In this document: positions 34,057 to 42,525 of the stretch, one piece after another
How the letters are laid out: every line of letters begins with the position of its first letter
Position numbering within the stretch: position 1 is the stretch's first letter
Assembly: GCA_913063835.1 (NCBI GenBank)
Contig: CAJXZV010000006.1
Coordinates: 1 to 45,756 of the forward strand
Source of the DNA: an uncultured Eubacteriales bacterium
GTDB lineage: Bacteria; Bacillota; Sulfobacillia; UBA995; UBA9673
DNA length: 45,756 bases
Direction of reading: 5' to 3'
The notes under the pieces: model-generated
The model's database searches: none
What the model saw: the letters and a program-made list of their open reading frames with translations, nothing else
Told to the model about the DNA's origin: nothing
Translations under genes and position numbers: made by a program

Positions 34057-34133
34057 CGGGGCGTGGCGCAGTTTGGTAGCGCGCTTGAATGGGGTTCAAG
34101 AGGTCGTGGGTTCAAGTCCCACCGCTCCGACCA
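34057..34133 (+). tRNA. tRNA-Pro (anticodon GGG at 34091-34093), CCA encoded
   Basis: CGGGGCG/CGCTCCG acceptor stem, CTTGA-ATGGGGT-TCAAG anticodon arm, GTGGG-TTCAAGT-CCCAC T-arm, ACCA 3' end. Confidence 0.95.
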
Positions 34134-38515: not shown

Positions 38516-38984
38516 TTCCCGCCCCAAGTCTACCCCTCCCGACCGCCGCCGTCAAGTCCGCGCATTCCCTCAGCTAGAATCTAACCCAACGGGTCCGGCT
38601 CTGTCAGACAGGAAGAACACCAAGTATGCCTCCGTGGTCGTCCCGCTGCCGGGAAGCGCTCGACTGCTGTTGCGCCCAGCGTCTTCATCGCCACGCGGTC
38701 CCACCCGGTGGGGCACCCTATGAGGCACCTCGTGGTCTACTCCGACCGGGAGGTCCTCGACGGTCTCGCGTCGGTCAGCCTTTCGACCCTCGCCCGACGT
38801 CCGAGGGAGAGGAAGCGCTCCACCTTGAACCGGTCGTGCCGGACATTAGGCTCGCGGACAAGAAGCGAGACGTTGTCGGATTAGACCCGCATAATGGAGG
38901 GATTGGGAATCGGGACCAAGAAGCTTTCCGGTCATGCATGGACGAGTGGCTTATGTGCGCGGGTGGCCTTCCAGGAGGTGTACC

Positions 38985-41255
38985 ATGTCGAATAGACCGC
39001 TGGTCTGGGTGACCGGTGACTTGACCGTTGACTGGCAATGGATCGAGCCGGCTCCGGAGCAGCCCGCTCCCGATCTAGAAGGAGAAGGGTGGTGGGGTGA
39101 GCGTCATGTGAGCGTCTCCTCCTATCCAGGGGGAGCCGCTCTGCTAGGTCGTGTGCTTCAAGAGGTTTCTTCTTGTGACAACGAGTCGTTTGAGGTCAGC
39201 TATCCCGAGCCGCCTGAGTCCCCAACCCCGACCGACCAACATTACCATCATTCGTATATGTCATGCAAGAACTACAACAAGTCTAACCAGGCTGAATCTT
39301 CTCTTTGGCGCGTTGCCAAGCCCGGGGGAGTTGCCCGGGCCTGGGAAACGCCACAAGACAGTCGCGAGGAGGACAATTCAGACAAGGCGAAGGTCGTCGT
39401 GGTGAACGATGCGGGCTTGGGTTTCCGGGGGAAGGAGAAGGGGAGGTGGCCCGCCGCGGTACGGCGCCCGGGGAGCGAGGAGGAGGGACCATGGTTCGTG
39501 CTCAAGATGGCCCACCCAGTCGCCGAGGGCCACCTGTGGGAGCATCTTATCTGTAAGTGCCCCGAACGGCTCGTGGTCGTCGTGGCGGTCGACGCCCTCC
39601 GTTACGGAGATGTGCATATCAGCCGAGGGGTGTCCTGGGAGCAGACAGCCTCCGACGTACATTGGGAGTTGCTTCAAAACTCCAAGGCGAAGTCTCTGGC
39701 CTGCTGTGCTTATGTCGTAGTCTCTTTTCCGACCGTCGGAGCCTTCTTGCTGTCTCGGCGTCGTGCAGACTCTGACCCTAAGGAGATGAAGCCGGAGGGC
39801 CGAATTTTCTTCGACCCCGAGCATATCGAGGATACCTGGGCCGAAGTTCATCCCGGTAGCATGGTGGGATACACAACATGCATGGCGGCGGCCATCGCGT
39901 ACAAAATCGCCACCAGCGATCAAGTAGACATACACGTCATTTCCGATGGGGTTCAGGCCGGCCTTCGGGCACAGCGAGCCCTACACGAGAACGGATATGT
40001 GGAGAGAAGGCGAGGCGACACACTCGTGGGGCTGGCCCCACCCTATACGGCTGTCGCCAAGGCTATCCGGAAAGCTGTTTCGGAGTTGCAGTTCTCGTAC
40101 GCGGAGATGCCTGAACAGCAACCCAGGGAGCAGTCCTCGAAAGGGCAGTCCTCGAAGCAGTCCTCCAACGCGCGGCCGGGGTGGTGGACCATCCTGAAGG
40201 AACGGTATAAGGATGAGGAACAGGATAAGGAAGATGCGCTTTTGCGTGTGGCCACGGAGATCGTGCAGGAGGGACCCGAGGAAGCACTCAAGCACGTTCC
40301 GCTGGCCCGGTTCGAGCGACTCGTCACCGTAGATAGGCGCGAGATAGAAGGGTACCGGAATGTGCGTCGGCTGATCGTCGACTACCTCCAGCGGCGTACC
40401 GCCACGGTCCCTCTATCCATCGCCGTTCTCGGACCACCCGGCGCTGGTAAGTCCTTTGGTGTGCGTCAGGTAGCGCGCTCCGTATCCAAAGACATAAGAA
40501 TCATCGAATTCAACATAGCCCAATGGACCGACCCGGAGGAACTCTACGAGGCTCTGCAACAGGTTCGAGACGAAGCCCTGTCAGGGAAGATACCTCTCGT
40601 GCTGTGGGATGAGTTTGACTGTAACCTCGGAAACGTCAAGCTGGGGTGGCTGAAGTACTTCCTTGCACCTATGCAGGACGGGTACTTCCAGCGGGGCGGA
40701 CACCGCCATCCTCTCGGGAGATCCATCTTCGTCTTCGTTGGAGGCCAATTCTCTTCCATGAAGGAGCTGGAAGAAGAGTCATCACGGTCAGATTCGTCAA
40801 ATGCAGGAGGTTCAAAGGTAAGAGACTTTGTCAGCCGCCTTAAGGGCTACGTGGACGTGATCGGTCCCGACCCCATCCCCGCTACCAAGAGCTCCTCCGA
40901 ACATGAAGAAGATAGGGGTGATAGGGAAGATAAGGAGTACGTCCTCAGACGTGCTCTCGTCCTCAGGAACATCCTGGAGTACCATGCCCCACACCTGTTT
41001 TCAAAACGTGACAGCAAAGACCTCCCCATAGCCCCCGGGGTCCTGAACGCCTTCTTGTCCATCCCCGAGTACAAGCACGGCACCCGCTCAATGGAAGCCA
41101 TAGTAACGATGAGCCTTCTGGCCGGGAGGAAGCGGTTCGAGCGTTCGTGCCTGCCGGCTGAAGCCCAGCTCGACCTTCATGTGGACGGTAAGGAGTTCCT
41201 GAAGCTGGCGCAGAACCCGGCGGTGGGCACGCCGGCAGAGAAGACCTCCTGTTGA
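38985..41255 (+). CDS. Ribokinase/PfkB-like domain fused to AAA+ ATPase domain, function unknown
   Basis: ATG after CCAGGAGGTGTACC; N-terminus VWVTGDLTVDW...SYPGGAALLGRVL and PGSMVGYTTCMAAAIAY; AAA Walker A LGPPGAGKS, Walker B LVLWDEFD, sensor-like FVFVGG; codon usage less GC-rich than neighbours. Confidence 0.75.
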   Translation: MSNRPLVWVTGDLTVDWQWIEPAPEQPAPDLEGEGWWGERHVSVSSYPGGAALLGRVLQEVSSCDNESFEVSYPEPPESPTPTDQHYHHSYMSCKNYNKSNQAESSLWRVAKPGGVARAWETPQDSREEDNSDKAKVVVVNDAGLGFRGKEKGRWPAAVRRPGSEEEGPWFVLKMAHPVAEGHLWEHLICKCPERLVVVVAVDALRYGDVHISRGVSWEQTASDVHWELLQNSKAKSLACCAYVVVSFPTVGAFLLSRRRADSDPKEMKPEGRIFFDPEHIEDTWAEVHPGSMVGYTTCMAAAIAYKIATSDQVDIHVISDGVQAGLRAQRALHENGYVERRRGDTLVGLAPPYTAVAKAIRKAVSELQFSYAEMPEQQPREQSSKGQSSKQSSNARPGWWTILKERYKDEEQDKEDALLRVATEIVQEGPEEALKHVPLARFERLVTVDRREIEGYRNVRRLIVDYLQRRTATVPLSIAVLGPPGAGKSFGVRQVARSVSKDIRIIEFNIAQWTDPEELYEALQQVRDEALSGKIPLVLWDEFDCNLGNVKLGWLKYFLAPMQDGYFQRGGHRHPLGRSIFVFVGGQFSSMKELEEESSRSDSSNAGGSKVRDFVSRLKGYVDVIGPDPIPATKSSSEHEEDRGDREDKEYVLRRALVLRNILEYHAPHLFSKRDSKDLPIAPGVLNAFLSIPEYKHGTRSMEAIVTMSLLAGRKRFERSCLPAEAQLDLHVDGKEFLKLAQNPAVGTPAEKTSC

Positions 41256-41581
41256 CTCCGAGCCGGACCCCGCGGCCCCGTCTGTGGTCAGGATGACGAC
41301 CCTCGAGCCCTCCACCAGGATGGCTGAGGTGACGAAGATGCCCTCCTTGAGTCCCGCCTGCTCCCGGAGCGATTCCAATGGCGACCATCTGCTATCGACT
41401 CGACCATCCCGAACGTCTCGCTCACGAGGTTGCCGTTCTCGTCGAGCTCCCGGATGACCACCCGTGCAGCCCTTTCCTTTTCGACAGGCTCACCTTCCCC
41501 GTCGAGGTAGTAAACCTCAGCGACTACGCCCCCGCCGGGCGTCTTCGCGCCGTCCTTCGGCCGATGGACCTCCTTTGTCAT
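41256..41581 (-). pseudogene. Small frameshifted/truncated hypothetical gene at the border of the AAA gene
   Basis: ATG at 41581 with GGAG SD; MTKEVHRPKDGAKTPGGGVVAEVYYLDGEGEPVEKERAARVVIRELDENGNLVSETFGMVESIA in one frame, coherent continuation LESLREQAGLKEGIFVTSAILVEGSRVVILTTDG in another frame. Confidence 0.55.
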
Positions 41582-41700
41582 GACGTCATCTCCTGCTCCA
41601 TGGGCCTGGTGCGAGGTGACAACCCGGCCCGTCAGCCTGCGCCTGTGTGTAGAGTGCTTGGCGGCAACGCCTGGGAAATCCTCTACGGGTGAGCGGAGAC

Positions 41701-42525
41701 TCACCTCGACCCCCGGCGGCTGCCGAGCCGGCCTCCGACGACGGCCCTGAGGCGCCTCCTCCTGACAGGGGTGCGGTGCCGCCGGGCGACCTCCACCGCG
41801 TGCGCCACGGCCGCGGCGTGGGCCTCGGTCTCCACCCGGTCGTCCAGGGGCGGGAGGGTGACGCCCTCCCCGTAGCGGCGGACGACGGCCCGCCGGATGA
41901 GCCAGTCGGCGAGCCACGGGTTCTTGGGCAGCACAGACCCGTGAAGATAGGTGCCGACGACGTTGCGGTACACGGCCCCCTCCGTCCCGTCCTCCCCGTT
42001 GTTGCCATGGCCCACCAGGACCTCCGCCAGAGGCCTCACCCCCGGCCCGAGATAGGTGCGGCCCGAGTGGTTCTCAAAACCGACCAGGGTCCGGGTCTCC
42101 TGGCCGGCGAGCAAGCTCCCGGCGACAACGTTCCCGATCATCCTCTTCCTCCCGGCACGGGTCTCCACGTCGAGGATTCCTATGCCGGGCAGGCGCTCCC
42201 CCGTCCCGGTCTCGTAGAACCGTCCCAGGAGCTGGTAGCCGCCGCAGATGGCCAGGAAGGGGACCCCGTCCTCCACGGCCTCGGCCAGGGCCCCTCCCTT
42301 GACCCGCTGGAAGTCCTCACAGATGAGCCTCTGCTCCTTGTCCTGGCCCCCACCCATGAAGAGGATGTCGAAGGCGGTGAAATCCACCGCCTCTCCCAGC
42401 CCGACCGCGGTGAGGCCGACCTCGATGCCCCGCCACTCGGCCCGCCGGCTCAAGGCGATGACGTTCCCGCGGTCCCCGTAGAGGTTCATGAGGTCCGGAT
42501 AGAGGTGGCAGATCTCCAGCCTCAG
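41701..42525 (-). CDS. gatD: Lipid II isoglutaminyl synthase glutaminase subunit GatD (CobQ-like GATase)
   Basis: LRLEICHLYPDLMNLYGDRGNVIALSRRAEWRGIEV, DILFMGGGQDKEQ, FLAICGGYQLLG, GTYLHGSVLPKNPWLADWLI; CTG start inferred, 4-bp overlap with murT. Confidence 0.88.
   Translation of the reverse strand: MRLEICHLYPDLMNLYGDRGNVIALSRRAEWRGIEVGLTAVGLGEAVDFTAFDILFMGGGQDKEQRLICEDFQRVKGGALAEAVEDGVPFLAICGGYQLLGRFYETGTGERLPGIGILDVETRAGRKRMIGNVVAGSLLAGQETRTLVGFENHSGRTYLGPGVRPLAEVLVGHGNNGEDGTEGAVYRNVVGTYLHGSVLPKNPWLADWLIRRAVVRRYGEGVTLPPLDDRVETEAHAAAVAHAVEVARRHRTPVRRRRLRAVVGGRLGSRRGSR

Follow-up and report, generated by a model that had tools for sequence, protein, structure and literature searches.

A predicted pseudokinase-AAA+ protein of solitary occurrence and its RyR- and SLOG-associated family

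The Thoeris system pairs a TIR protein (ThsB) with a SIR2-SLOG protein (ThsA), and the title of a PDB entry recovered among our Foldseek matches describes 3'cADPR bound by the SLOG domain of ThsA. RyR-domain proteins of phages, the anti-Thoeris RyDEP, are viral single-domain evasion proteins that bind or cleave the cADPR isomers 2'cADPR and 3'cADPR, and the RyR pocket is conserved across PF02026 (2026 preprint, PMC13232231). Bacteria also encode RyR domain proteins (PF02026), such as WP_264051538.1 of a Methylobacterium plasmid. The ribokinase/PfkB fold is represented by HldA, ribokinase and nucleoside kinases. Described AAA+ proteins include ClpB-D2/Skd3, NtrC and BrxL, the last of which is a phage-restriction AAA+ protein.

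We analyzed a 756-aa protein encoded in a window of 45,756 nucleotides (the entire stretch of DNA under study) and compared it with each of these systems. It has the same pseudokinase and AAA+ body as WP_264051538.1, being 35% identical across the two thirds of the query that the alignment covered, but lacks the RyR domain of proteins of that type. Residues 1-358 share the ribokinase/PfkB fold, whereas the GAGD motif and any Pfam match are missing and other residues are conserved. Fold and Walker motifs are shared with ClpB-D2/Skd3, NtrC and BrxL, but the sequence relationship stops at the AAA+ module and the partner domains differ. The family to which the protein belongs, named RK-AAA in this analysis, is a ribokinase-fold pseudokinase fused to a predicted AAA+ ATPase, as judged from sequence and a structural model. 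Most members have the RyR fold found in RyDEP; the window protein does not. Family operons resemble Thoeris in that they pair TIR with a SLOG protein of ThsA-SLOG-like fold, but in the operons examined ThsA was absent and an AAA+ pseudokinase was central instead, and the window has neither a ThsB TIR nor ThsA. No Pfam, NCBIfam or PADLOC model fits the RK-AAA body, and the best PADLOC match of the window protein, QatA (E 0.056), was confined to the P-loop. No assay of an RK-AAA member, either for defence or of its biochemistry, was found. The work of Burroughs et al. on nucleotide-centric systems, in NAR in 2015, may mention RyR/SLOG neighbourhoods already, and an earlier description of RK-AAA is possible.

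The window gene and the RK-AAA family

The gene and its surroundings comprise the following features.

38556..41715, no strand: variable slot between gatD and csoR that holds other genes in same-family genomes (comparison with relatives)
38973..38979, plus strand: Shine-Dalgarno sequence AGGAGGT, 5 nt ahead of the ATG
38985..41255, plus strand: coding sequence of the 756-aa ribokinase-fold pseudokinase and AAA+ protein, stop codon included (ORF calling, structure prediction, Foldseek)
38985..40058, plus strand: predicted ribokinase-fold domain, residues 1-358 (Foldseek match to HldA 4e8w, E 3.5e-9; profile search)
39828..39881, plus strand: putative pseudo-active-site segment, residues 282-299 (E282, G291 and G295 conserved; GAGD Asp in 0/62 sequences)
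40107..40184, plus strand: low-confidence Ser/Gln-rich linker, approximately residues 375-400 (pLDDT <50 at 388-398)
40185..41216, plus strand: predicted AAA+ module, residues 401-744 (sequence, model, Foldseek, tree)
40431..40454, plus strand: Walker A GPPGAGKS, residues 483-490 (family alignment)
40596..40619, plus strand: Walker B LVLWDEFD, residues 538-545 (family alignment)
40728..40745, plus strand: FVFVGG (family form FVFAGG), residues 582-587 (family alignment)
41255..41581, minus strand: short ORF with native base composition, apparently frameshift-broken near 41380 (reading frames, third-position GC)

The first-pass annotation, made from the sequence by eye, had proposed a 756-aa ORF with a strong Shine-Dalgarno sequence, and this was confirmed. 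The preferred start codon, an ATG at 38985, follows AGGAGGT, and the stop lies at 41253-41255; a protein of 773 aa would result from the alternative ATG at 38934, also in frame. The 2.27-kb frame is open throughout. The gene has no adjacent co-directional gene, in agreement with the earlier statement that it has no operonic partners, and no conserved RNA near it was matched in Rfam.

An AlphaFold2 model built from an alignment of 62 homologues was confident (mean pLDDT 89.4, pTM 0.91). Against the PDB, Foldseek placed the HldA heptose kinase first (4e8w, E 3.5e-9), followed by nucleoside kinase and ribokinase, and returned NtrC1, ClpA, BrxL, Skd3 and ClpB as AAA+ matches, so the model and Foldseek agree with the architecture first suggested, a ribokinase-like N-terminus joined to AAA+. 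Profile searches against PDB sequences and Pfam PfkB detected no kinase relationship for the N-terminal domain, and the ribokinase-fold claim therefore rests on structure. Walker A and Walker B are both intact on the AAA+ fold. R618, R656 and R701 are invariant in the alignment, and the single-chain model does not place an arginine finger or sensor 2.

Scanning genome contigs with the single window sequence gave 0 matches; an alignment-based scan confirmed 160 relatives, 80 of which were taken as loci for comparison. These 80 loci come from 18 or more named phyla, among them archaea, and the best ~20 align with the window protein over approximately residues 3-744, that is, over both domains, at 36-43% identity. 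Phage records yielded no family match, and matches in the viral fold library were limited to generic AAA+ proteins. A very divergent member on an IMG/VR contig of 117,624 bases (L091) was the only one found among viral contigs.

The C-terminus is the variable part of these proteins. Among 85 classified members it carries RyR in 62, a SLOG-like domain in eight, both in one and neither in 14, several of the 14 being cut off at contig ends. RyR is firmly assigned in relatives, by PF02026 and by a profile match to ryanodine receptors at E 1e-34. Complete members without RyR recur (L009, from a Streptomyces plasmid, L058, L065, L043 and L039), and parsimony requires at least seven changes of C-terminal type across the family.

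Neighbourhoods of RK-AAA genes

Genes at the loci were called by a simple longest-ORF method, and near genes (within three genes) were contrasted with far genes (five or more genes away). Seeds for the partner profiles came from these very loci, mostly from near genes, so that the following counts, and partly the near/far contrast, are biased upward: at least one SLOG, RyR-TrkA channel, TIR or DUF4062-STAND gene lies within three genes at 36 of 81 loci, the other 45 being without these partners; by partner, the loci number 19 for SLOG, 14 for TIR, 13 for RyR-TrkA channel-like and nine for DUF4062-STAND-TPR; and near versus far genes number 19/402 versus 0/444 for SLOG (p 6e-7), 17 versus 1 for TIR (p 3e-5), 14 versus 1 for the channel (p 2e-4) and 11 versus 2 for DUF4062 (p 0.007). 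The best example is L031, where RK-AAA-RyR, SLOG, TM-TrkA_N-RyR and TIR genes are all co-directional and tightly packed, with gaps of 12 bases at the first junction and 52 bases at the third and a one-base overlap at the second. At L031:13255-15084 a 610-aa channel-like protein with TrkA_N and RyR domains is encoded, which, by its domain content, is possibly an RyR-gated bacterial ion channel.

SLOG is either fused to RK-AAA or encoded next door, which constitutes a gene-fusion link. A model of a neighbouring SLOG protein (pLDDT 86.8) matched YpsA first (E 8.8e-8), then DprA and LOG-like proteins; a further match of its predicted fold, at E 1.8e-3, was the structure of the ThsA SLOG domain with 3'cADPR.

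Other arrangements were observed. Directly 3' of one RK-AAA gene, L040:11646-14222 encodes a fusion of RelA/SpoT synthetase-like, prokaryotic TRPM-type SLOG (LSDAT_prok) and RyR domains (Pfam-tested), and L079:3448-6018 encodes a similar 857-aa protein, probably RelA/SpoT-SLOG-RyR. L053 is a variant whose SLOG protein has a weak SLATT 2TM match. On Methylobacterium plasmid pA, L010:1876-8124 encodes, in divergent orientation near an RyR-type RK-AAA gene, a 2082-aa SIR2-like/TPR protein; a transposase and a helix-turn-helix gene lie between the two.

The first-pass annotation had suggested that the solitary gene is a candidate conflict or regulatory system. The link to conflict-type genes holds for the family, but no defence enrichment was found around solitary members (Clostridia, Chlorobi, SLOG-fused), whose neighbours are mixed: among 139 of these, PADLOC matches were few and mostly generic. 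Solitude likewise describes the window copy but not the family, which is often multi-gene. The clostridial and Chlorobi members are conserved within their groups, and the genes around solitary members are metabolic about as often as they are anything else, as would be expected if RK-AAA had a physiological role outside immunity, as a regulator that remodels proteins through AAA+ and senses a nucleoside or a redox/NAD metabolite in many soil and sediment anaerobes. We consider this rather unlikely, given the absence of a conserved housekeeping neighbourhood, the patchy distribution (a homologue in 6/397 other genomes of the phylum) and the association with TIR, SLOG, SLATT and DUF4062-STAND genes. 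A role for the family in conflict signalling is the reading we prefer.

The window copy and its genomic slot

The gene occupies a lower-GC island, as had been noted by eye. Its entire length has a GC content of 58.7%, the lowest for a stretch of that length in the window, and a scan of all 45.7 kb placed the lowest-GC 2,271-base interval, overlapping the gene, at a start of 38801 (58.4%; mean 68.4%, sd 3.0). GC3 is 0.68, versus 0.81-0.90 in csoR, trxB, trx, HD, gatD and murT. The count of 22 G/C in 60 reported for 39241-39300 is exact, though this 60-mer is an extreme one.

One flank carries HD, thioredoxin, thioredoxin reductase and CsoR-type repressor genes, the other GatD, MurT and then SpoIVA; from SpoIVA, the host is presumably a spore-forming Bacillota-type lineage. 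Elsewhere in the window, a tRNA gene at 34057-34130 lies immediately 5' of a gene for a CLC-type chloride channel with CBS domains, named by inspection of its translation. The order murT-gatD-...-csoR-trxB-trx-HD is kept in two same-family genomes that lack the window gene, with a small unnamed ORF in the slot of G001 and an AlkZ-like glycosylase plus a UPF0259 membrane protein in that of G002. An AlkZ-like DNA glycosylase was recorded at L112:4996-6372, in the same slot of a same-family genome. The gatD-csoR slot may be an insertion hotspot. A conserved housekeeping neighbourhood in relatives, the alternative raised in the first-pass annotation, was not found. A homologue of the window gene was present in 0/100 related genomes. 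No convincing terminal repeats flank the gene, and there is no integrase among the identified flanking genes. Foreign composition and absence from relatives, both features of a mobile island, are present, and together with the variable slot they support horizontal acquisition.

The broken gene that had been reported at the border is plausible. The minus-strand ORF at 41255-41581 shifts frame near 41380, with coding-type third-position GC in both halves; a homologue was found in 0/20 relatives, so the evidence for the break comes from the reading frames themselves. It probably has no connection with the imported gene.

In the AAA+ tree the window protein is nested in an RyR-bearing clade (SH-aLRT 89, quick tree), and it has therefore probably lost an RyR domain. 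No RyR was found in the protein or in the window frames, and no remnant was seen 3' of the stop. Its branch length is 0.87 versus a median of 0.28, and it deviates at 8/92 highly conserved columns, the Walker A motif and the acidic residues of Walker B being spared. Its own genome yielded no RyR (positive controls G221 and G483 gave signal), no TIR_2 and no SLOG partner, and none of SLOG, RyR-TrkA, TIR or DUF4062 is adjacent to the gene. With these absent, the window copy is predicted to be unable to run the full pathway outlined below, unless its components are encoded in the few percent that the assembly lacks.

The long branch, the missing RyR and partners and the apparently broken gene alongside could mark a decaying passenger, imported and no longer working after loss of its sensor domain and partners. 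Such decay appears unlikely: the frame is fully open behind a strong Shine-Dalgarno sequence, both Walker motifs and the invariant residues are retained, several other members deviate at as many or more conserved columns, and complete RyR-less members recur. The window copy is a fast-evolving derivative and a weak representative of RK-AAA; the family is the finding.

The pseudokinase domain and the proposed switch

Replacement of the catalytic GAGD, noted in the first-pass annotation for the window protein, proved to be conserved across a large family: the motif is absent from 62/62 aligned homologues, while D12, D142, K174, R206, S217-W218-E219 and E282 vary little or not at all. The uniform absence of GAGD and this second, nearly invariant residue set indicate that the N-terminal domain is, by sequence, a family-wide pseudokinase and not the product of local decay. 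A conserved but different residue set in a kinase fold suggests ligand binding without phosphorylation. An active kinase with a different acidic residue as base (e.g. E282) would be compatible with the ribokinase fold, with E282, which is invariant, and with D142, which is nearly so. Such a kinase is highly improbable, however: all 62 sequences lack the GAGD motif together with its Asp and anion hole, and profile searches detect no similarity to PfkB. The earlier proposal of a dead sugar-kinase fold as sensor for an AAA+ motor stands insofar as a dead ribokinase fold is fused to AAA+, but the usual sensor in the family is the C-terminal RyR/SLOG, which is absent here.

Because RyR and SLOG domains bind cADPR-type signals, we propose, with even confidence for and against, that RK-AAA is an ATPase switch in ADP-ribose-type conflict signalling and that the window gene is an acquired solitary member, a stand-alone ligand-gated ATPase. 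Under infection or stress, a nucleotide of the ADP-ribose type would be made by TIR or a comparable enzyme encoded within the operon or close to it. The RyR/SLOG domain would bind this nucleotide, either in cis or in neighbouring SLOG and RyR-TrkA proteins, and the pseudokinase pocket would recognise another small molecule, which is probably a nucleoside or a sugar-nucleotide. The AAA+ ring, by binding or hydrolysing ATP, would then license or reset an effector, which may be a membrane channel or a TIR/STAND protein. What the analysis itself shows is the fold, the missing kinase motif, the intact Walker motifs, the domain architectures and neighbourhoods of the family and the marks of horizontal acquisition, whereas we infer the ligand, oligomeric state, direction of regulation and antiviral purpose. 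Having lost its RyR domain and all partners, the window copy would act only via its pseudokinase pocket and predicted ATPase; its own function is uncertain, since it is fast-evolving and has no RyR domain and no SLOG or TIR partner.

A more tentative reading, which we hold to be possible and somewhat doubtful, is that RK-AAA represents an undescribed, multi-phylum class of immune signalling: ADP-ribose signals made by TIR would reach an RyR-gated TrkA-type channel by way of a pseudokinase-AAA+-RyR/SLOG switch, a prokaryotic counterpart of RyR/TRPM logic, with the window copy as a sensor-less stand-alone offshoot. A hitherto unnamed ATPase family is tied to RyR and SLOG, both linked to ADP-ribose immune signals, and to an RyR-bearing channel-like protein. 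If this reading is true, it would give bacteria a ligand-gated channel system parallel to animal RyR/TRPM signalling, with the pseudokinase-AAA+ protein as its control unit.
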